Source: a virus. From it: DNA of 22,848 nt. Each line of letters starts with the position of its first letter. Within the stretch, counting starts at the first letter, position 1. The stretch spans positions 1 to 22,848 of IMG/VR virus record IMGVR_UViG_3300037119_000529; one strand, given 5' to 3'. Under the pieces are notes generated by a model. That model was not told where the DNA came from and made no database searches. It saw only the letters and a program-made list of their open reading frames with translations. Position numbers and translations under genes: made by a program. Positions 17,121-22,848 of the stretch are shown in pieces.

Positions 17121-17123
17121 GTG

Positions 17124-17190
17124 CGCCCCTGCGAGGAGTCGAACCCCGATTGCTCCGGCCTAGAAAACCTGCATGATCCATTCCAAGGGC
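17124..17190 (-). tRNA. tRNA-like gene, probably tRNA-Arg(UCU), reduced D-arm
   Basis: The acceptor GCCCTTG/CAGGGGC pairs fully (with G-U) and the T-arm CGGGG-TTCGACT-CCTCG has one mismatch. The best anticodon arm is CAGGT-TTTCTAG-GCCGG (four pairs plus one mismatch), giving UCU for AGA. The D-arm is only ATG-GAT-CAT, and the whole gene is about 67 bases. It may be degraded. No CCA is encoded. Confidence 0.55.
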
Positions 17191-17191
17191 T

Positions 17192-17264
17192 TGGAAGCGA
17201 TACCGAGAGTCGAACTCGGACTCAGTGGGTTGCAATCACTGTCTGCCTGCCCGGTCATACCGCC
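17192..17264 (-). tRNA. tRNA-Cys(GCA)
   Basis: The acceptor is GGCGGTA/TATCGCT, the T-arm CCGAG-TTCGACT-CTCGG is perfect, and the anticodon loop is TTGCAAC. U73, the cysteine identity base, is followed by an encoded CCA. The anticodon stem has an A31-C39 mismatch. Confidence 0.82.
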
Positions 17265-17265
17265 G

Positions 17266-17339
17266 TACACGACCAGGGAATCGAACCCTGCTCTAGACAC
17301 GTTATCAGCGTGCCTCTCACAACCAGTGAGATATCGTGC
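17266..17339 (-). tRNA. tRNA-Ile(GAU)
   Basis: The acceptor is GCACGAT/GTCGTGT, the D-stem CTCA/TGAG, and the anticodon arm GCACG-CTGATAA-CGTGT. The T-arm CAGGG-TTCGATT-CCCTG is perfect. A73 is present and no CCA is encoded. Confidence 0.9.
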
Positions 17340-17342
17340 TCA

Positions 17343-17416
17343 GTACCCCCCGAGAATTCCGACATCTCGACCCGCCGATTAAAAGTCGGCTGCTCTGCCT
17401 CTGAGCTAGAGGGGTA
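17343..17416 (-). tRNA. tRNA-Lys(UUU)
   Basis: The acceptor is TACCCCT/GGGGGTA, the D-arm GCTC/GAGC, and the anticodon arm GCCGA-CTTTTAA-TCGGC is perfect. The T-arm is unusual (GAGATGTCGGAATTCTC) and resembles that of tRNA-Lys(CUU) at 18151, so the two are probably duplicates. Confidence 0.85.
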
Positions 17417-17423
17417 TGGGACC

Positions 17424-17486
17424 GATGGGCGCTGGTGGATTCCAGTCGTTTGAGCCTTGCCAGCCTTCTCTAGGCTAAGCCCCATC
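17424..17486 (-). ncRNA. tRNA-slot element, possible degenerate tRNA
   Basis: This 63-base stretch is closed by GATGGG/CCCATC, holds a D-arm-like AGCC-TAGAGAA-GGCT and ends with CTGG-AATCCA-CCAG. No acceptable anticodon arm is found. It fills exactly one tRNA slot between Lys and Gln genes. Confidence 0.3.
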
Positions 17487-17493
17487 AGTCTCG

Positions 17494-17564
17494 CACCAAG
17501 GGCTGGAATCGAACCAACCGCACACCGAGTTCAGAGCCCGGCTGACCGCCTTGATCACCTTGGT
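17494..17564 (-). tRNA. tRNA-Gln(CUG)
   Basis: The acceptor ACCAAGG/CCTTGGT is perfect, the D-arm GATC-AAGGC-GGTC is short, the anticodon arm is CCGGG-CTCTGAA-CTCGG and the T-arm GTTGG-TTCGATT-CCAGC. G73 is present. Confidence 0.9.
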
Positions 17565-17569
17565 AAGTG

Positions 17570-17626
17570 GCTAGAGTCCTTCCCCCGCTTTGCATTGTCG
17601 CGCTATGGCGGCGGGGCTTCTCTAGC
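17570..17626 (-). ncRNA. 57-base structured tRNA-slot element
   Basis: GCTAGAG pairs perfectly with CTCTAGC at the two ends. Inside, CCCCGC pairs with GCGGGG around a loop with a small hairpin CGC-CATA-GCG. It has no T-arm or anticodon arm. It sits between tRNA-Gln and tRNA-Arg with almost no spacing. Confidence 0.35.
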
Positions 17627-17627
17627 C

Positions 17628-17703
17628 TGGTCCCCCTAGAGAGATTCGAACTCCCGGCAACGTAGGTTCGTAGCCTACTGCTCTTCCGCTGAGCTATAGA
17701 GGG
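17628..17703 (-). tRNA. tRNA-Arg(ACG)
   Basis: The acceptor is CCCTCTA/TAGGGGG, the D-arm GCTC/GAGC, the anticodon arm GTAGG-CTACGAA-CCTAC is perfect and the T-arm is GGGAG-TTCGAAT-CTCTC. A73 and CCA are encoded. A34 is normally edited to inosine by the host. Confidence 0.94.
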
Positions 17704-17713
17704 TTGTACTGCG

Positions 17714-17786
17714 TGCCTCTGGCGGGATTCGAACCCACTGCCTCCGTCATACCAAGACGGCATTCATCCATTTGAACCTCAAAGGC
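17714..17786 (-). tRNA. tRNA-Thr(GGU)
   Basis: The acceptor is GCCTTTG/CAGAGGC, the anticodon arm CCGTC-TTGGTAT-GACGG and the T-arm GTGGG-TTCGAAT-CCCGC. A73 is present and no CCA is encoded. Confidence 0.92.
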
Positions 17787-17788
17787 GG

Positions 17789-17861
17789 GGCTCCGTGCCG
17801 GGGTCGAACCGGCGCTTCCTGATTACGAAACAGGCGTGCTGGCCATTGTCACTAACAGAGC
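17789..17861 (-). tRNA. tRNA-Thr(CGU)
   Basis: The acceptor is GCTCTGT/ACGGAGC, the D-stem GTG/CAC and the T-arm GCCGG-TTCGACC-CCGGC is perfect. The anticodon arm CCTGT-TTCGTAA-TCAGG has one U-U pair. Confidence 0.9.
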
Positions 17862-17862
17862 G

Positions 17863-17929
17863 TAGCTCGTCAGGGGATCGAACCCTGCTTAGGAGTGTGT
17901 AGGACTCCGGTGTTCCCAGAACACAAGCC
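17863..17929 (-). tRNA. tRNA-Val(UAC) with C33 and odd D-arm
   Basis: The acceptor is GGCTTGT/ACGAGCT, the T-arm CAGGG-TTCGATC-CCCTG is perfect and the anticodon stem GGAGT/ACTCC is perfect around CCTACAC. The nearly universal U33 is C. The D region can fold as GTGTTC-TGG-GAACAC, which is not a normal D-arm. At 67 bases it is short. Confidence 0.72.
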
Positions 17930-17930
17930 G

Positions 17931-18004
17931 TGGGGCAACAGGGATTCGAACCCTGCCTTTCACTTTGGAAGAGTGATGTGCTATGCCGCTAACACTACTG
18001 CCCT
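17931..18004 (-). tRNA. tRNA-Gly(UCC)
   Basis: The anticodon arm TCACT-CTTCCAA-AGTGA is perfect, the T-arm CAGGG-TTCGAAT-CCCTG is perfect and the D-stem is GTG/CAC. The acceptor AGGGCAG/TTGCCCC has an A1-C72 mismatch. Confidence 0.9.
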
Positions 18005-18012
18005 ATATGATC

Positions 18013-18067
18013 CGCAGGCAAGGACGAAGGCCTTTGTTCGAGGCCGAGCGCATTGCTGACCCCTGCG
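18013..18067 (-). ncRNA. 55-base structured tRNA-slot element
   Basis: CGCAGG pairs with CCTGCG at the ends, and an anticodon-like arm GGCCT-CGAACAA-AGGCC lies inside, but there is no T-arm. It could be a tRNA remnant (a loop reading AAC would be valine, with G33). Confidence 0.3.
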
Positions 18068-18072
18068 TATCG

Positions 18073-18145
18073 TGCGGTAAGGGAGATTCGAACTCCCGCT
18101 AAGACGTTGGCAACGTCCCGTGCTAACCACTAACACTACTACCAC
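18073..18145 (-). tRNA. tRNA-Gly(GCC)
   Basis: The acceptor is GTGGTAG/TTACCGC, the anticodon arm GGACG-TTGCCAA-CGTCT and the T-arm GGGAG-TTCGAAT-CTCCC. The D-stem is GTG/CAC, as in the neighbouring Gly(UCC) gene. Confidence 0.92.
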
Positions 18146-18150
18146 ATGCG

Positions 18151-18222
18151 TGCTCCCAGAGAATTTCGAAATCTCGACCCGAGCCTTAAGAGGGCCCTGC
18201 TCTGCCTCTGAGCTACAGGAGC
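18151..18222 (-). tRNA. tRNA-Lys(CUU)
   Basis: The acceptor is GCTCCTG/TGGGAGC, the D-arm GCTC/GAGC and the anticodon arm GGGCC-CTCTTAA-GGCTC. The T-arm GAGAT-TTCGAAA-TTCTC has U-U in place of the usual G53-C61 pair. Confidence 0.88.
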
Positions 18223-18234
18223 GTATGTACTGCG

Positions 18235-18317
18235 CGGAGCCCGGACTACTCGAAAGCCATCCCAGCGGAACGATCCGGCTAGCAACCGGTCCCGGCACCC
18301 TGGCCGGTTCAGACTCC
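18235..18317 (-). tRNA. tRNA-Ser(GCU), class II
   Basis: The acceptor is GGAGTCT/GGGCTCC with G73. The anticodon loop TTGCTAG lies between CCGG and CCGG. The D-arm is CCGG/CCGG. A long variable region (about 15 bases) marks class II, as expected for serine. The T-loop is TTCGAGT. Confidence 0.85.
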
Positions 18318-18343
18318 ATGTTTCACACTGTTGAGTTGTGCTG

Positions 18344-18428
18344 CGGAAGAAGGACGAATCGAACGCCTGTGCCTGAGACACCCCTGGGTTTCGAAGCCAG
18401 TGCCCTAGCCATTAGAGCCTCATCTTCC
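18344..18428 (-). tRNA. tRNA-Ser(CGA), class II
   Basis: The acceptor is GGAAGAT/TTCTTCC with G73. The anticodon arm CTGGC-TTCGAAA-CCCAG has one C-C. The variable arm GTG-TCTCAGG-CAC gives class II shape. Confidence 0.87.
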
Positions 18429-18434
18429 AAAGAG

Positions 18435-18466
18435 AAATGGCCCCGGGTTTTCACCTAGGGCCACTT
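18435..18466 (-). terminator. terminator upstream of tRNA-Ser(CGA)
   Basis: AAGTGGCCC pairs with GGGCCATTT (one G-U), followed by CTCTTT. It would end transcription from the jelly-roll gene and the micro-ORF unit before the tRNAs. Confidence 0.65.
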
Positions 18467-18481
18467 CCTTGCTGATCTGTT

Positions 18482-18547
18482 TCAGCGTAGCCCGATAGCG
18501 GTGACCGACTGGCCCCCGCGCTTGGACGTGCTGATGATCATGAACAT
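18482..18547 (-). CDS. micro-ORF (21 residues) in promoter-terminator unit
   Basis: The peptide is MFMIISTSKRGGQSVTAIGL plus R. The ATG is seven bases after TGC-TACGAT, so a leaderless transcript is predicted, and a terminator follows 15 bases after the stop. There is no known family. The RNA rather than the peptide may be functional. Confidence 0.35.
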   Translation of the reverse strand: MFMIISTSKRGGQSVTAIGLR

Positions 18548-18554
18548 AGAACCT

Positions 18555-18563
18555 ATCGTAGCA
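18555..18563 (-). promoter_or_regulatory. extended -10 promoter of micro-ORF unit
   Basis: TGC-TACGAT followed by AG. The eight bases TACGATAG recur at the second micro-ORF unit (21412-21419). Confidence 0.45.
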
Positions 18564-18575
18564 TACTTCCCGGGA

Positions 18576-19049
18576 CTAGGGAAGGTCTCCGATGCGGGTC
18601 ACGTTGATGCGGCAGGCGAAGTTCGCGTACACGTTGCCAGAGACCGTCTGGTCCTGGATCACGAGCGTGGATCCGTTGCCGTAGCCGACGAGGCGGATCA
18701 CGTCGTTGGTGTACAGTTCCACGGTCTGCGCGTTGCCGCCGATGGAGGCACCCACCTGGACGATGCCGCCGAGTGCGCGGAGGTCGAGGCCGGTGATGCC
18801 CGTGGACTTGTTGCGGGTGAAGCCGACGATGCCGGAAGCTGCATTGTCCAGGATGAGGGTCCAGTCCAGCAGGTACAGGCCGTCCTCGGGGATGCGGATG
18901 CCGTCGCCCTGAACGTAGTCAGCGAAGACGAACGCGCCAGCCTGTCCGGTGACGTTCCAAGCGCCAGTGGCGTGGAGCGTGCCGTAGGAGCCATTGGGGG
19001 CGGAGAGAGAGTTGATGGTGCCGCGCGAGAGGCGCATTTGCGTAGTCAA
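18576..19049 (-). CDS. jelly-roll (C1q-like) virion or surface protein
   Basis: This protein of about 157 residues looks like a single beta-sandwich: GTINSLSAPNGSYGTLHATG, FVFADYVQGDGIRIPEDGLY, LLDWTLILDNAASGIVGFTR, VELYTNDVIRLVGYGNG and a final FACRINVTRIGDLP. The Y-L-L-D-W-T and D-V-I-R-L pattern resembles C1q/TNF-like domains of phage structural proteins, so it may be a small fibre or decoration protein. I prefer the TTG at 19049, with GGAG five bases upstream; a TTG at 19079 also opens the frame. A -10 (TACAAT) lies at 19086-19091. It is isolated inside the tRNA array, so it is likely a late insert. Confidence 0.7.
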   Translation of the reverse strand: MTTQMRLSRGTINSLSAPNGSYGTLHATGAWNVTGQAGAFVFADYVQGDGIRIPEDGLYLLDWTLILDNAASGIVGFTRNKSTGITGLDLRALGGIVQVGASIGGNAQTVELYTNDVIRLVGYGNGSTLVIQDQTVSGNVYANFACRINVTRIGDLP

Positions 19050-19085
19050 GAGAACTCCATCGTTGGTGGGTTGAACCAACCCTCC

Positions 19086-19091
19086 ATTGTA
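19086..19091 (-). promoter_or_regulatory. candidate -10 (TACAAT) for jelly-roll gene
   Basis: TACAAT matches five of six, and the start site would give a leader of about 30 bases carrying GATGGAG before the TTG start. Confidence 0.4.
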
Positions 19092-19097
19092 CTCCCG

Positions 19098-19421
19098 CTA
19101 TCTGGGATCGAACTGATCGGTGACCACGCGCTCGTCGGTGTGGCCCTTGAATACCACGCGGCTTGCGAAGCCAGCGTTCCGGTAAGCCCTAGCGAACTTC
19201 ACAGCGCGCTTGCGGGGCAGTTCGCGGCTGATATAGAACCAGCCATCCTCAGCCCAGTAGGGCCATTCTGTGACCGTCCGAGAGGTGGCGCGACCTTCGA
19301 CCTCGACGTAGTTAGGGTGGAGCCCCCGCTGATTCTTGCTGCGAGGCTTGGGGAGGTGCCAGTCGTTCGCCGCGATGGGCTTGAACACCTGGACGAAGTG
19401 TCCGGTCCTGCTGTTCGGCAT
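19098..19421 (-). CDS. hypothetical protein inside tRNA array
   Basis: This is a 107-residue basic protein starting MPNSRTGHFVQVFKPIAAND. GAGGAGGG six bases upstream makes ATG 19421 the clear start; a longer frame would run into tRNA-Leu(CAG). It contains ENWPYWAED-like aromatic residues (TEWPYWAEDGWFYISRELPR) and an arginine/lysine-rich helix (RKRAVKFARAYRNAGFASR). I do not recognise a family; the basic helix could bind nucleic acid. It lies 19 bases after a tRNA gene, so it probably shares the tRNA transcript and would be freed by tRNA processing. Confidence 0.75.
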   Translation of the reverse strand: MPNSRTGHFVQVFKPIAANDWHLPKPRSKNQRGLHPNYVEVEGRATSRTVTEWPYWAEDGWFYISRELPRKRAVKFARAYRNAGFASRVVFKGHTDERVVTDQFDPR

Positions 19422-19440
19422 GATGCCCTCCTCGCTATCG

Positions 19441-19514
19441 TGGCCCGTGTGGGATTCGAACCCACAGCATCCCACGGTCTGAGCATGGGTGGTCTACCGG
19501 TTGCCTAACTGGCC
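19441..19514 (-). tRNA. tRNA-Leu(CAG) with short variable loop
   Basis: The anticodon arm is CCATG-CTCAGAC-CGTGG, the T-arm GTGGG-TTCGAAT-CCCAC and A73 is present. The acceptor GGCCAGT/ACGGGCC has one mismatch. The variable region is only about ATGCT, whereas bacterial tRNA-Leu normally has a long arm. Confidence 0.85.
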
Positions 19515-19515
19515 G

Positions 19516-19589
19516 TACTCCGAGTGGGATTCGAACCCACAGCATACGACGCACTCAACATCGTTGGTCTACCGATTGCCTACCGAAGC
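19516..19589 (-). tRNA. tRNA-Leu(GAG) with short variable loop
   Basis: The acceptor is GCTTCGG/TCGGAGT (G-U rich), the anticodon arm CGATG-TTGAGTG-CGTCG and the T-arm GTGGG-TTCGAAT-CCCAC. A73 is present. It shares its D-arm and ATGCT variable loop with its two neighbours. Confidence 0.85.
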
Positions 19590-19590
19590 G

Positions 19591-19664
19591 TGACGATCCT
19601 GGGATTCGAACCCAGAGCATGCGGGGGTTTGAATCCCGCTGGTCTACCGATTGCCTAGACCGCC
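19591..19664 (-). tRNA. tRNA-Leu(CAA) with short variable loop
   Basis: The acceptor is GGCGGTC/GATCGTC, the anticodon arm GCGGGA-TTCAAAC-CCCCGC (one A-C) and the T-arm CTGGG-TTCGAAT-CCCAG. A73 is present and the variable loop is ATGCT. Confidence 0.85.
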
Positions 19665-19668
19665 AAGG

Positions 19669-19714
19669 TGGCAGTTTTGCTCGGACCTGGGGTGAGTACC
19701 GAACGGATCTGCCA
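19669..19714 (-). ncRNA. 46-base structured spacer element
   Basis: TGGCAG pairs with CTGCCA at the ends; inside are CCG-TT-CGG and further short pairings. No tRNA arms are seen. It lies between the Leu and Phe tRNA genes. Confidence 0.25.
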
Positions 19715-19721
19715 ACCGCCG

Positions 19722-19795
19722 TGGCTCCCGGGAGACTCGCACTCCACCCCTCCGGCTTTTCAAACCAGCGCTCCGACTATTAGAGCTTGGGATCC
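19722..19795 (-). tRNA. tRNA-Phe(GAA)
   Basis: The acceptor GGATCCC/GGGAGCC has one mismatch. The D-arm is GCTC/GAGC and the anticodon arm CTGGT-TTGAAAA-GCCGG. The T-loop is TGCGAGT instead of TTCGANT. A73 is present. Confidence 0.87.
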
Positions 19796-19796
19796 G

Positions 19797-19868
19797 TGGC
19801 GCTGGAAGGAATCGAACCTTCTCACGAACGGTTTACAGCCGTAGCCCAGTGAGCCAACTGTCAACGCC
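19797..19868 (-). tRNA. tRNA-Tyr(GUA) with short variable loop
   Basis: The acceptor is GGCGTTG/CAGCGCC, the anticodon loop CTGTAAA lies between ACGG and CCGT, and the T-arm GAAGG-TTCGATT-CCTTC is perfect. Bacterial tRNA-Tyr is normally class II; here the variable region is about six bases. Confidence 0.87.
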
Positions 19869-19869
19869 G

Positions 19870-19948
19870 TGACTAGTACCGGAATCGAACCGGTGTCCTT
19901 TACTGAGGGTGAAAATCTCAGTGCCCCTGCCAGCAGAGCAAACTAGCC
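19870..19948 (-). tRNA. tRNA-Glu(UUC)
   Basis: The acceptor is GGCTAGT/ACTAGTC, the anticodon loop TTTTCAC lies in the CTGAG/CTCAG stem region, and the T-arm ACCGG-TTCGATT-CCGGT is perfect. The variable region is slightly long (eight bases). Confidence 0.88.
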
Positions 19949-20242
19949 AGATGTGAGAGGGCCCTAGAACTGACCCTCTATAGCAGACTTTCGCGCGGCT
20001 TATGTATTACCGGCTTCTCCACGATGTCCCCACCGTATCTGCCATGCCCGGTTGTTAGGACAACCACCCCTTACGACGTGAACTACTCCACAAGATTCGA
20101 TTCGCGAAAGGATGGCCGTCCATCCGCTGCACTACTACTTCGTGAACACCCTTGGCCTTTCGAGCTTCCAGGTGCCTGGATTGGCTTGCGCCTCCAGGAT
20201 TAGGGCACTTTCGCCCACGTCGGGAAGAGAACTTTCGATTTG
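19949..20242 (-). ncRNA. hairpin-rich non-coding region between tRNAs
   Basis: No convincing gene is seen. Minus-strand hairpins include CCTGGA-GGC-GCAA-GCC-AA-TCCAGG (GNRA loop), GGTTGT-CCTA-ACAACC, GGATGG-ACGG-CCATCC and AGAGGG paired with CCCTCT at 19955-19979. A 58-base unit at 20105-20162 is closed by CGAAAGG/CCTTTCG. Frames through it look non-coding. Confidence 0.4.
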
Positions 20243-20314
20243 AATGCAATCAAGGATTTGAACCTTGACACACGGTTTACAGAACCGTTGCTCTGCCAAT
20301 TGAGCTAAATGCCG
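20243..20314 (-). tRNA. tRNA-like gene, Thr(UGU) or Tyr-like, weak acceptor
   Basis: The D-arm GCTC/GAGC, the anticodon stem ACGGT/ACCGT and the T-arm CAAGG-TTCAAAT-CCTTG are good. The seven-base loop TCTGTAA reads UGU (Thr) but with C33. The sequence also equals tRNA-Tyr's arm with two inserted T residues. The acceptor CGGCATT/ATTGCAT pairs poorly. It may be decaying. Confidence 0.6.
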
Positions 20315-20746
20315 TGACGATGGAAGTGCTCTTCCAGAAGTTCCGAACCCTTTGGAGGCCCAGAATGCTTCACTCCCACATAGCTTTCGGTGTCACCCTA
20401 ATCGCACTCTCCGCCGCTACTCCCGACCCGCCGACCGGTTTGACGCCTTCATGGAACCCGCCCTAGGCCGACAAGCCTCGGACTCAGTTCCTTCCTCGTG
20501 GACATCCAATCTCGTTTCCAGATCCACCCCCTGCCGGGAGTGCGTACATAGCCTGTCGGCCCTACGCTTCAGATCGTTGACTCGAAAAGATGGCATCCAG
20601 GTCTTTGGCTCCTGAACGCTCAACCACTCGGTTTGCATGAGATACCATCGCTGGCGGCTGGAAGTCATCCAACCTTTCACCAGGTCGCCCTGGCTTATCC
20701 GTCATGCCGGTTTGGTCATCCCTTGCGGAACTCCCTGTCGTCACCG
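20315..20746 (-). ncRNA. candidate structured ncRNA(s) with own promoter
   Basis: This stretch of about 430 bases has no convincing protein gene, and a promoter sits just upstream. Two helices are unlikely by chance. One is a nine-pair stem at 20641-20649 with 20589-20597 (GATGGTATC/GATGCCATC, with a G-U valid only on the minus strand), enclosing AACC-GAGT-GGTT and CAGG/CCTG as a three-way junction followed by TTTT. The other is a ten-pair stem at 20554-20564 with 20464-20473 (TGTCGGCCTA and its partner). A seven-pair GGTTGGA-TGACT-TCCAGCC hairpin and a final GGAAG-AGCA-CTTCC hairpin add to the structure. There is no known family. Confidence 0.5.
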
Positions 20747-20776
20747 ACTCTAACACGAGGTCAGAGCCGATGTCAA
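20747..20776 (-). promoter_or_regulatory. promoter with -35 TTGACA and extended -10
   Basis: TTGACA (20776-20771) lies 18 bases before TAGAGT (20752-20747), which is preceded by TGT, giving a full -35 and a TG extension. It is the best sigma-70-type promoter on the coding strand in the window. It lies just after tRNA-Glu(CUC) and drives the structured RNA region. Confidence 0.6.
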
Positions 20777-20797
20777 CGCGATTTCCTGAGAAACCGC

Positions 20798-20871
20798 TGG
20801 TAGCCCATGGGGGTTACGATCCCCCGACAAGTGACTGAGAATCACTCGTGTTGCCATTACACCAATGGGCC
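20798..20871 (-). tRNA. tRNA-Glu(CUC)
   Basis: The acceptor is GGCCCAT/ATGGGCT with A73 and an encoded CCA. The anticodon arm is AGTGA-TTCTCAG-TCACT. The T-stem GGGGG/CCCCC is perfect, with loop ATCGTAA. A relic of a related tRNA lies at 4836-4896. Confidence 0.9.
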
Positions 20872-20876
20872 ATGCG

Positions 20877-20949
20877 CGACCATACGGGGTATCGATCCCC
20901 GACCTCTTGCTCGACAGGCAAGCGTGCACGTCCTGTACACCATACGGCC
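20877..20949 (-). tRNA. tRNA-Asp(GUC)
   Basis: The acceptor is GGCCGTA/TATGGTC, the anticodon arm CTTGC-CTGTCGA-GCAAG is perfect, and the T-stem CGGGG/CCCCG has loop ATCGATA. G73 is the aspartate identity base. Confidence 0.9.
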
Positions 20950-20950
20950 T

Positions 20951-21025
20951 TGGGGTGGCGTACGGGGATCCAACCCGCGACTCCAGGTCCACAACCTGGT
21001 GTGTTAGCACTACACTAACGCTACC
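20951..21025 (-). tRNA. tRNA-His(GUG)
   Basis: The anticodon arm CCAGG-TTGTGGA-CCTGG is perfect. The extra G at position -1 pairs with C73, the histidine hallmark, and CCA is encoded. The acceptor has one A3-C70 mismatch. The T-loop is TTGGATC. Confidence 0.92.
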
Positions 21026-21026
21026 G

Positions 21027-21098
21027 TCCGGACTAGAGGATTCGAACCTCTGACTCCATGGTCCCTAACCAAGTCGCTTACCACTCGCGTAAATCCGG
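21027..21098 (-). tRNA. tRNA-Pro(AGG)
   Basis: The acceptor is CCGGATT/AGTCCGG and the T-arm AGAGG-TTCGAAT-CCTCT is perfect. The anticodon arm CTTGG-TTAGGGA-CCATG has one mismatch. Confidence 0.9.
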
Positions 21099-21101
21099 TC
21101 A

Positions 21102-21129
21102 GCATACTATTTTTCTTCACGCCGTATGC
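21102..21129 (-). other. hairpin between tRNA-fMet and tRNA-Pro
   Basis: GCATAC pairs with GTATGC around a 16-base A-rich loop (GGCGTGAAGAAAAATA). It may be a processing signal or a promoter (TAGTAT). Confidence 0.35.
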
Positions 21130-21141
21130 CAGGGTCGCTCG

Positions 21142-21209
21142 TTGCGGAGGAGAGATTCGAACTCTCGACGTGCCGGGTTATGAGCCCAGAGCCCCACCAG
21201 GGCCCCGCG
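21142..21209 (-). tRNA. initiator tRNA-fMet(CAU), short D-arm
   Basis: The acceptor CGCGGGG/CTCCGCA has the C1-A72 mismatch that marks bacterial initiator tRNAs, and the anticodon stem CTGGG-CTCATAA-CCCGG has the three G-C pairs needed for P-site entry. The T-arm GAGAG-TTCGAAT-CTCTC is perfect and A73 is present. The D-arm is only CCC-TGGT-GGGG, so the gene is about 68 bases. Confidence 0.85.
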
Positions 21210-21222
21210 TCGTTGTCTTGCG

Positions 21223-21294
21223 TGGATCGTGTGGGACTCGAACCCACCTGCCTGCCAGCTTGCAAGGCTAGCGCGCTTACCCTGAGCACAACCC
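21223..21294 (-). tRNA. tRNA-Ala(UGC)
   Basis: The acceptor GGGTTGT/ACGATCC includes the G3-U70 pair that specifies alanine. The anticodon arm is CTAGC-CTTGCAA-GCTGG and the T-arm GTGGG-TTCGAGT-CCCAC. A73 is present. Confidence 0.93.
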
Positions 21295-21304
21295 GTGAAC
21301 AGCA

Positions 21305-21336
21305 GAACCCCCGACCAGTTTCCTAGTCGGGGGTTC
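21305..21336 (-). terminator. terminator with GAAA tetraloop
   Basis: A 14-pair stem (GAACCCCCGACTAG with its complement, one G-U) is capped by GAAA. There is no long T tract. It follows the second micro-ORF. Confidence 0.7.
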
Positions 21337-21353
21337 GCAAATGGGTGCGCCGA

Positions 21354-21407
21354 CTAGGCTCCGGGGTCAAGCTCCGGGGCGAAGTGCAGTGCATACATCG
21401 TGGTCAT
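21354..21407 (-). CDS. micro-ORF (17 residues) in promoter-terminator unit
   Basis: The peptide is MTTMYALHFAPELDPGA. The ATG is six bases after TGG-TACGAT, which fits a leaderless transcript, and the terminator at 21305-21336 follows. A longer reading from 21425 would start upstream of the promoter. There is no known family. Confidence 0.35.
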   Translation of the reverse strand: MTTMYALHFAPELDPGA

Positions 21408-21413
21408 GGGACT

Positions 21414-21422
21414 ATCGTACCA
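21414..21422 (-). promoter_or_regulatory. extended -10 promoter of second micro-ORF unit
   Basis: TGG-TACGAT followed by AG. It lies just after the tRNA-Asn terminator. Confidence 0.45.
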
Positions 21423-21443
21423 CATGTTCGGCGGGCAAAGGAA

Positions 21444-21475
21444 AAGACCCCCACCGGATTTCCAGAAGGGGCCTT
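21444..21475 (-). terminator. terminator after tRNA-Asn
   Basis: AAGGCCCC pairs with GGGGTCTT (one G-U) and is followed by TTTTCCTTT. It is the only terminator here with a good T-rich tail. Confidence 0.75.
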
Positions 21476-21483
21476 CGTCCACG

Positions 21484-21556
21484 CTCTTCCACCAGGATTC
21501 GAACCTAGACCACTTGATTAACAGTCAAGCACGCTCGCCGTTTACGCCATAGAAGA
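21484..21556 (-). tRNA. tRNA-Asn(GUU)
   Basis: The acceptor is TCTTCTA/TGGAAGA, the anticodon arm CTTGA-CTGTTAA-TCAAG is perfect and the T-arm is CTAGG-TTCGAAT-CCTGG. G73 fits asparagine. Confidence 0.92.
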
Positions 21557-21995
21557 TCAGGGTGTTTCACGAGGGGCAGGCTAGACCCGGGGTTACCCGG
21601 ACCTCCGTCACCTTTCGAACGAACTCGCCTACTTGTTCACCCGACTTACGATTAGCTCTTTTCTGGGTTAGACCATCCTCGGTTCGACAGGTAGCTTACT
21701 CGTCTAACTTTCCCCGAAGGTACTCGCCAGCATTTCAGCAGGTAGTCTACTAAGACTTTGGTCGCCGCCGTACTCACAGCCGCAACGCGGGTTACTTATT
21801 CAGCGTGCTCTATCTACTCAGATCAGGTGTGCTAGTTACACCAGCCTTGGCCTGTCCTCGCATACAAGTCTATCCCGACAGCCAGCCCCGGAAGAAGGAC
21901 TGAAGGTTAGTGCTCGTACTAGGGCCGCAACAGACAACCGGGTTGCCCGTCTACTCCCCTATGGGAGCCACAGTTCACGTTCAACTGTGACAACG
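21557..21995 (-). ncRNA. hairpin-rich non-coding region, function unknown
   Basis: These 439 bases hold no credible gene. Clear minus-strand hairpins are CACAGTT-GAACGTG-AACTGTG (21969-21989), CTCCC/GGGAG, AGTCT-TAGT-AGACT, ATCT-GAGT-AGAT, CC-TTCG-GG, CCGC-GTT-GCGG and CCGGG-TAAC-CCCGG. A 42-base unit at 21667-21708 is closed by GTTAGAC/GTCTAAC. It could be one long RNA or several short ones. Confidence 0.4.
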
Positions 21996-22062
21996 CGCCC
22001 CGTCGAGGTGTCGCACCCCGCTAGCAGGTTTTGGAGGCCCGCTTGATCCTGGATCACAAGAC
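21996..22062 (-). tRNA. tRNA-Trp(CCA) with mini D-arm
   Basis: The acceptor is GTCTTGT/ACGGGGC (three G-U), the anticodon loop CTCCAAA is canonical for tryptophan, and the stem CGGGC/ACCTG has one mismatch. The T-arm CGGGG-TGCGACA-CCTCG has an altered loop. The D-arm shrinks to GATC-CAG-GATC. G73 fits tryptophan. It is 67 bases long and easily missed. Confidence 0.75.
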
Positions 22063-22206
22063 ATGTGGCAGATTACGTCTGCCAGGCGGATGGTGGGTCA
22101 TCAACCTGTGGGGACTACGCCGCGAGAGCGTACATGGTGGCCTGTCCCGTGGCTTTCATGTTGCGGCTACCAGTGTAACACGCTGAGCCTGAGATTATTC
22201 CCAGTG
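22063..22206 (-). other. gap between surface protein gene and tRNA-Trp
   Basis: This stretch holds the YALAA micro-ORF and a perfect GGCAGA-CGTAA-TCTGCC hairpin at 22067-22083 right before tRNA-Trp. No promoter or T-tailed terminator is clear. Confidence 0.5.
22115..22159 (-). CDS. micro-ORF ending in tmRNA-tag-like YALAA
   Basis: The ORF reads MKATGQATMYALAA and then TAG. Bacterial tmRNA tags end in YALAA or close variants, which ClpXP recognises. From the GCC codon it would give a 12-residue tag, ATGQATMYALAA, a usual length. I found no tRNA-like tmRNA ends around it, so a complete tmRNA is not shown. Confidence 0.35.
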   Translation of the reverse strand: MKATGQATMYALAA

Positions 22207-22848
22207 TCAGTTACCGATCTTCTGCCACTGCGTGGTACCGGTCAGGACGTACCCGGGCTTGGCGCTCGCGACGAGCTTGACCTTGCCGTTCGAATACTTC
22301 GTCTGCGTGTACTTGTACGCATCCGTGTCCGTGTAGATCCACGTGGCGTTGTTCGGGCCAGCCGGGTCACTCCAGGTCGGAGCCTTCGCCGTCACGCTGA
22401 CAGCCGCCTTCGGGAACGACCACTCGTAGTACGTCTGGTCACCCGCGAGCACGTAGCCCGGGTGGCCGTAGGTCGAGGCGACGATCAGCGTCTCCGTCTC
22501 GTACTCGTAGATGCCGTAGAACACACCATCCACCGTCGGCAGGTTGAACGTGCCATCGGCGTTCTGGGTGGGTGCGGGCAGCGGGGTCGGCACGACGATG
22601 TTCTCGCACGGCACGTTCGTGTTCTTCGGGATCACGGTCTTCACGGTGTAGACCCCGTTGAGGTCCGGCTGCACACCCTCGAAGGCGTAGTAGACGCCGC
22701 GGACCACGCCCGTCTGGGCGTAGCCGGTGAGTGTGGTCGGGTCCACGATGCCGGTCGAGTCATCGACCGTGCTCGTGAGGAAATTCGACTGGCCCGTCTG
22801 GCCGGTCGCTCCCTTGACGAGCACGTAGGCGTCGCCGTCGGTGCCGCA
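22207..22848 (-). CDS. surface/fibre-like protein, 5' end outside window
   Basis: The frame is open from the window edge to the stop at 22207 (213 residues visible). A GTG at 22824 is inside a continuing frame (CGTDGDAYVLVKGATGQTGQ), so the gene very likely starts outside. The visible part is beta-rich, with GVYYAFEGVQPDLNGVYTV, a Pro/Thr linker (VVPTPLPAPTQNADG) and two similar modules ending PGYVLAGDQTYYEWSF and PGYVLTGTTQWQKIG. The PGYVLTGTTQW pattern is common in C-terminal repeats of secreted actinobacterial surface proteins. In a phage it may be a fibre or host-derived adhesin domain. The function is unknown. Confidence 0.7.
   Translation of the reverse strand, partial: CGTDGDAYVLVKGATGQTGQSNFLTSTVDDSTGIVDPTTLTGYAQTGVVRGVYYAFEGVQPDLNGVYTVKTVIPKNTNVPCENIVVPTPLPAPTQNADGTFNLPTVDGVFYGIYEYETETLIVASTYGHPGYVLAGDQTYYEWSFPKAAVSVTAKAPTWSDPAGPNNATWIYTDTDAYKYTQTKYSNGKVKLVASAKPGYVLTGTTQWQKIGN

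Follow-up and report, generated by a model that had tools for sequence, protein, structure and literature searches.

A nearly complete tRNA gene array interrupted by a GOLLD RNA in a viral genome fragment, and phage tRNAs with a remodeled elbow

Described arrays and the array of the window

Viral genomes can carry transfer RNA (tRNA) genes in clusters, defined by a density of at least two tRNA genes per kilobase, and eight viral clusters hold all 20 isotypes (PMC6409571). The jumbo phage XacN1 likewise has tRNAs for all 20 amino acids (PMC5852040). Arrays bearing a GOLLD RNA have also been published (PMC6582537, PMC12286853), and the mycobacteriophages of cluster M (GenevaB15, Rey, Bongo, and PegLeg) have at least 20 tRNAs around a GOLLD. 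Here we describe an array of about 29 tRNA genes in a tailed-phage genome fragment, IMG/VR record IMGVR_UViG_3300037119_000529, which was analyzed over its whole length of 22,848 bases (the window). The arrays of cluster M are among its closest known counterparts, and GenevaB15 shares with it a tRNA-like element within the GOLLD; GenevaB15 differs in having a clear tRNA-Trp (55.5 bits), a transfer-messenger RNA (tmRNA), and an RtcB ligase nearby, and in its gene order (common subsequence of 11). XacN1 resembles the window in the breadth of its set but has a 385-kb genome with two terminal repeats, each holding 26 canonical tRNAs, and seven more tRNA-related genes. A 32-tRNA cluster of Mycobacterium aubagnense also has a GOLLD with a pseudo-tRNA inside, but that cluster is chromosomal, and expression of the pseudo-tRNA was not detectable there (PMC6582537).

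With default bacterial settings, ARAGORN found 21 tRNA genes on the minus strand at 17192-21556, and none in 200 dinucleotide-preserving shuffles of the array. Rfam added Phe, Lys(TTT), and one Thr(TGT); relaxed ARAGORN settings added Met, Val, Arg(TCT), and Ser(GCT), and a Trp(CCA) appeared in mitochondrial mode (-mt) only. A covariance model built on 54 tRNAs from other phage loci (R2) recovered 26 class I tRNAs (31.8 to 62.9 bits, E<=9e-8), every one of them on the minus strand, within 17123-21556. The next scores were 13.2 bits (the antisense of a Leu tRNA), 12.0 bits for Ser(CGA), a class II tRNA of the kind to which R2 is unsuited, 11.9 bits for the Trp candidate, and 10.2 bits, the best score outside any tRNA, inside a gene. 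We dropped the other calls of the relaxed ARAGORN scans (those at -ps60 and the bulk of the extras at -ps80), as -ps80 yields 2.6 matches per shuffled array. The firm tRNA genes are thus the 26 from R2 and Ser(CGA); Ser(GCT) is probable, and with the Trp candidate the total is 29. At 28 to 29 genes in about 4.9 kb, the density is close to 6 per kb. Nearly all stems are still paired, and the discriminator bases match the isotypes (C73 in His; G73 in Asn, Asp, Gln, both Ser, and Trp; U73 in Cys). The number and span given by a first-pass annotation, about 29 genes in one minus-strand array, were recovered by R2 and ARAGORN together; the interruption of the array by a GOLLD was absent from that reading. 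Eight of the 29 genes are overlooked at default settings, so isotype counts of phage arrays made in that way may be too low.

A search with a Leu-tRNA signature led to two uncultured phages, 3300028588_000021 (L123) and 3300012942_000071 (L096), in which the gene order is kept. The longest common subsequence of tRNA order with the window is 18 genes in L123 (maximum of 12 in 5,000 shuffles) and 20 in L096 (maximum of 13 in 5,000), and the shared order runs Asn-Ala-Met-Pro-His-Asp-Glu-Glu-Tyr-Phe-Leu-Ser-Lys and, farther on, Arg-Gln-Lys-Cys/Ile. The weaker calls Met, Phe, Val, and Lys(TTT) have counterparts in the same order in both phages, as Ser(GCT) has in L096, some of these counterparts likewise appearing in the relaxed scan only. 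Unlike the window, neither phage has a GOLLD above the gathering score, and L123 differs further in carrying a manA-like RNA and a tRNA-Trp with an altered elbow between Asn and Ala. That manA-like RNA (L123:3551-3796; 34.2 bits, E 2.8e-7) falls under the gathering score and, instead of occupying a 5' untranslated region, lies within a tRNA array.

Nineteen amino acids are firmly served, and the 20th, Trp, probably is. The first-pass claim of a set covering all 20 amino acids had been staked on covariance models accepting the Val, Cys, initiator, and Trp genes; Val (35.9 bits), Cys (33.7 bits), and the initiator Met (31.8 bits) pass, but Trp is borderline at 11.9 bits (E=0.037) under R2 and 12.8 bits (E=0.013) under R1. 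Its acceptor stem has 7 of 7 pairs and its T-stem 5 of 5, and its layout is that of the tRNA-Val of the same array, with a 7-bp acceptor, a micro-D-arm (GATC-CAG-GATC in Trp), and 68 nucleotides. In mitochondrial mode, a CCA call arose in 1 of 1,000 shuffles of the 650-nucleotide Trp segment and at 0.01 per shuffled array, in a test posed after Trp had been found missing from the set. In the syntenic L123, a tRNA with a Trp anticodon also adjoins tRNA-Asn and is followed by a structured RNA. Against the candidate stand the low R2 score, a 31-39 mismatch, and the unusual T-loop TGCGACA. From the sequence, we consider it likely that this element is a tRNA-Trp.

Codon coverage and the role of the array

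The tRNA-Met begins with CGCGGGG and ends with CTCCGCA-A, giving a C1xA72 mismatch, and its anticodon arm, CTGGG CTCATAA CCCGG, places three G-C pairs (GGG/CCC) by the loop. Both features are established hallmarks of bacterial initiator tRNA, and the initiator type assigned at first reading is borne out by their presence together; in the shortened D-arm, the A11-U24 positions of the D-stem are not assignable. No second CAT anticodon was found in the array, which therefore lacks an elongator Met tRNA. Because the sole Met tRNA is of the initiator type, the 96 internal AUG codons counted must all be read by host tRNA. Counted over the 5,482 codons of the window genes, codons without an elongator tRNA in the array amount to 5.7% under generous wobble and 17.8% under strict wobble, and AUG, CCG, TCC, and CGG are uncovered under either rule. 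Self-sufficiency would call for an elongator tRNA for every codon used; the array instead covers most, not all, of translation. We noticed neither a synthetase nor a CCA-adding enzyme nor an RNA ligase in these 22.8 kb, which are only part of the genome. The near-complete translational independence that had been proposed is contradicted by the missing elongator Met and the uncovered codons. Nor is a full set as rare as had been suggested, given the eight published viral clusters, XacN1, and three other arrays analyzed here that reach 20 isotypes under ARAGORN -ps90 (GenevaB15, L101, and L125).

We think it fairly probable that the array is a broad insurance set against depletion of host tRNAs, without making the phage self-sufficient. 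The cluster would be transcribed in blocks, with 20776-20747 and the sequence upstream of 22062 as possible internal promoters. The host would supply the RNases that release the tRNAs, the enzyme that adds their CCA ends (none is encoded), and the synthetases that charge them. Should the host tRNA pool shrink, by decay or through the anticodon nucleases of the host, most codons would stay readable, including the GC-ending codons that the phage favors; the host would still be needed for internal Met codons and for part of the Pro, Ser, and Arg codons. The order kept with L123 and L096, the fit of base 73 to isotype, and the empty shuffles favor this reading. Replacement of lost host tRNAs has been proposed, and partly demonstrated, in other phages: phage tRNAs bear changes in the anticodon loop whose predicted effect is evasion of host nucleases (PMC10264068), and phage tRNAs can evade retron and other defenses (PMC11555353). 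Weighing against it are the unusual genes (the micro-D-arms, the weak Trp, and the broken Thr(TGT) acceptor), which might be decaying, and the fact that the window is a genome fragment.

The array could alternatively top up tRNA species that are scarce in the host and needed for phage codon bias. In XacN1, the tRNAs favor codons commoner in the phage than in the host (PMC5852040). Phage codon use is indeed skewed, with CAG making up 99% of Gln codons, AAG 96% of Lys codons, and CTG and CTC 89% of Leu codons, and the array holds the matching Gln(CTG), Lys(CTT), and Leu(CAG) and Leu(GAG). The set is broader than such a need, however: it includes Arg(TCT) for AGA and AGG (7% of Arg codons) and Lys(TTT), though AAA is 4% of Lys codons, yet none of its tRNAs serves TCC or, perhaps, CCC. 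We regard compensation of codon bias as unlikely to be the main role.

The GOLLD RNA and other elements of the array

The 3' domain of the GOLLD scores over the gathering threshold of its Rfam model, and a less conserved 5' region lies upstream of it; that region (20381-20745) matches the sequence upstream of the GenevaB15 GOLLD (nhmmer E=1.8e-11), and the whole GOLLD region folds at z -5.9 versus shuffles. Nanocage assembly and induction at lysis are features ascribed to GOLLD RNAs. The one in the window probably acts separately from the tRNAs, by analogy with the nanocage RNA known in other phages. The promoter-like site in front of it is weak evidence, because a single such site was found and chance alone would give 1.7 in the region. 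The Thr(TGT) element inside the GOLLD may not be a working tRNA, and Thr is served by two other tRNAs of the array. Mycobacterial GOLLDs can likewise hold a pseudo-tRNA (PMC6582537), and GOLLDs occur beside tRNA islands, some with tRNAs in the GOLLD linker (PMC12286853).

A search with the terminase returned 80 loci, among which part of the array is kept in L004 only (62% terminase identity to the window). The two Glu tRNAs that flank the GOLLD in the window are neighbors in L004, so this site has seen the gain or the loss of a GOLLD. A GOLLD over the gathering score is also absent from 12 other array loci, and from these two observations we conclude that parts of the array come and go. Such turnover, together with the broken acceptor stem of Thr(TGT), is what one would expect if the locus were mostly cargo at a recombination hotspot, its tRNAs and GOLLD stemming from phage exchange and few of them useful. 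Against this stand the order kept with L123 and L096, the paired state of nearly all stems, and the correct discriminators for each isotype, which make the cargo explanation improbable. A role in lysogeny, like the published tRNA-dependent lysogeny of temperate mycobacteriophages (PMC10865867), seems equally improbable: GOLLD-bearing tRNA arrays do occur in mycobacterial genomes (PMC6582537), but we noticed neither an integrase nor a repressor in the fragment, and the closest terminases of named phages are only 34 to 52% identical.

The coordinates of all features are given in Table 1. Between Trp and Asn, the non-coding stretch 21557-21994 has nine AGTA motifs versus 3.1 expected (z 3.9) and a GC content of 0.55 versus 0.64 in genes; its fold, taken over 21557-22207, only mildly beats shuffles (z -2.0), and no Rfam or phage match to it was found. 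These features suggest that it may be a second structured RNA. A tmRNA, which GenevaB15 has between Trp and Asn, and ROOL and manA RNAs were rejected as identities, there being no Rfam covariance-model match at E<=10; a second manA search was also negative, though this was a weaker test whose first pass overlooked the manA match in L123. A short likeness to manA (CUGAAUAA...CCCGC) is visible by eye only. TANNNT-like boxes followed by short open reading frames (ORFs) lie at 22090-22190, 21310-21420, and 18440-18560, the last two with strong terminator-like hairpins, and these sites are possible internal promoters or attenuators. Stable hairpins also stand between tRNAs at 17565-17627, 17416-17492, and 19665-19720 (fold z -3.3 to -3.6). 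The first resembles an abiF RNA by eye and has no Rfam support, and we rejected that identity. An abiF RNA (RF03085, 42.9 bits) does lie between array tRNA genes of GenevaB15 (L007:8353-8389), where it is possibly a decoy of a host defense RNA. Downstream on the minus strand of the window are a glutaredoxin-like gene and terminase, portal, capsid, and tail genes. Searches with the protein at 18576-19079, among viral contigs, and with the one at 22207-22848 found no relatives.

Table 1. Features of the array in window coordinates, and tRNAs of the remodeled-elbow class at other loci
Feature	Coordinates	Strand	Evidence or remarks
Putative tRNA-Trp(CCA), 68 nucleotides	21995..22062	-	ARAGORN -mt; T-loop TGCGACA, micro-D-arm, G73
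Non-coding stretch between Trp and Asn, 438 nucleotides	21557..21994	-	AGTA motifs, low GC
tRNA-Asn(GTT)	21483..21556	-	62.9 bits R2, G73
-10-like box, short ORF, terminator-like hairpin	21295..21420	-	sequence reading; fold z -4.2
tRNA-Ala(TGC)	21222..21294	-	36.6 bits R2
Initiator-type tRNA-Met(CAT)	21141..21209	-	31.8 bits R2; shortened D-arm
tRNA-Pro(AGG)	21026..21098	-	56.6 bits R2
tRNA-His(GTG)	20953..21024	-	55.9 bits R2, C73
tRNA-Asp(GTC)	20876..20949	-	49.8 bits R2, G73
tRNA-Glu(CTC)	20800..20871	-	61.9 bits R2
Promoter-like site TTGACA-18-TAGAGT before GOLLD	20747..20776	-	10/12 consensus positions
GOLLD 5' half, presumed extent	20381..20745	-	similarity to GenevaB15
GOLLD 3' domain, RF02032	19958..20380	-	186.8 bits versus gathering 150, E 1.9e-51, full length 1-416
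tRNA-Thr(TGT)-like element inside GOLLD	20242..20314	-	51.0 bits R2; acceptor 4/7 pairs
tRNA-Glu(TTC)	19869..19948	-	34.4 bits R2
tRNA-Tyr(GTA)	19796..19868	-	34.9 bits R2
tRNA-Phe(GAA), remodeled elbow	19721..19795	-	32.4 bits R2, 30.3 bits R1
tRNA-Leu(CAA)	19590..19664	-	51.4 bits R2
tRNA-Leu(GAG)	19515..19589	-	38.5 bits R2
tRNA-Leu(CAG)	19440..19514	-	41.8 bits R2
Protein gene inside array	19098..19427	-	open frame; no PHROG match
Protein gene inside array	18576..19079	-	open frame; no PHROG match
tRNA-Ser(CGA)	18343..18428	-	ARAGORN default, G73
tRNA-Ser(GCT), weaker	18234..18317	-	ARAGORN -ps80, G73; Ser(GCT) call at same place in L096
tRNA-Lys(CTT)	18150..18222	-	59.2 bits R2
tRNA-Gly(GCC)	18072..18145	-	56.0 bits R2
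tRNA-Gly(TCC)	17930..18004	-	51.5 bits R2
tRNA-Val(TAC), 68 nucleotides	17862..17929	-	35.9 bits R2; micro-D-arm GTTC-TGG-GAAC; ARAGORN default overlooks
tRNA-Thr(CGT)	17788..17861	-	55.2 bits R2
tRNA-Thr(GGT)	17713..17786	-	57.5 bits R2
tRNA-Arg(ACG)	17630..17703	-	60.9 bits R2
tRNA-Gln(CTG)	17493..17564	-	37.4 bits R2, G73
tRNA-Lys(TTT)	17343..17415	-	52.8 bits R2
tRNA-Ile(GAT)	17265..17339	-	36.9 bits R2
tRNA-Cys(GCA)	17194..17264	-	33.7 bits R2, U73
tRNA-Arg(TCT), 68 nucleotides, short D-arm	17123..17190	-	32.1 bits R2
Remodeled-elbow class, other loci	L130:2994-3064 (Grayson), L123:3477-3546, L137:3999-4069 (-)		D-loop TAANAGTG, T-loop GGCAGTA
Remodeled-elbow class, further members	several of L150-L192; L296; L316

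tRNAs with a remodeled elbow

The tRNA-Phe of the window has an unusual elbow, with A8, U14, AG at positions 18-19, and G55 (D-loop TAATAGTCG, T-loop TGCGAGT). The Trp candidate has G55 and AG within its tiny D-loop, and micro- or shortened D-arms are found in Val, Arg(TCT), Met, and Trp. The tRNA-Trp of L123 and one that lacks annotation in Rhodococcus phage Grayson, neither of which is reported by ARAGORN in bacterial mode, have the D-loop TAA(T)AGTG and the T-loop GGCAGTA in common. A pattern of the two loops only, with a free gap of 22 to 46, matched 60 viral loci, and the span expected of a tRNA, 48 nucleotides, occurred in 17 of the listed spans versus about 2.4 expected. A structure filter leaves 19 distinct tRNAs, of which 13 have Lys anticodons; the stems of 16 aligned members covary strongly, pairing having been part of the filter. 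The class exchanges U8:A14 for A8:U14 and G18/U55 for A18/G55 and retains G19 and C56. That the Trp candidate of the window simply belongs to the GGCAGTA T-loop family is not supported, given its T-loop TGCGACA and its low R1 score.

Positions 18 and 55 covary across 282 distinct phage tRNAs with C56, called by ARAGORN at default settings in the viral loci and the window, some of the loci having been fetched by the loop pattern and others not. GG at 18-19 goes with U55 in 262 of them and AG with G55 in 14; AG with U55 does not occur, and GG with G55 occurs in one ambiguous case. Pattern matches in genome contigs were mostly chance-like, and only L296 and L316 pass the structure filter. L296:1-8000, a contig of a Verrucomicrobiales metagenome-assembled genome, carries 13 or more tRNAs, among them many that combine AG at 18-19 with G55, as well as a tRNA-Lys of the GGCAGTA type; it may be a phage contig binned with that genome. 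We found no description of the remodeled-elbow class in phages in the literature searched, an absence that is not proof of novelty.

In a model, the AriB protein of PARIS contacts U16-U17 in the D-loop of tRNA-Lys, and a change of U16 impairs cleavage (PMC12409363). Evasion of a tRNA-targeting defense is on this ground a sensible guess for such tRNAs. A more speculative reading, which we hold rather unlikely, is that the array carries, besides copies of host tRNAs, remodeled ones (Phe, perhaps Trp, and those with micro-D-arms) that belong to a wider class, richest in Lys among the members sampled here, and still function in translation. If this is true, the altered D-loop and elbow would hide phage tRNAs from nucleases that read the D-arm or elbow.

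The array adds a GOLLD-bearing, nearly complete example to the documented class of phage tRNA arrays. It also shows that a set serving every amino acid need not confer translational independence, which turns on codon coverage and, here, on the lack of an elongator Met tRNA. The remodeled-elbow class is the most useful lead; its paired changes at 18/55 and 8/14 may offer a testable route of escape from tRNA-targeting immunity.

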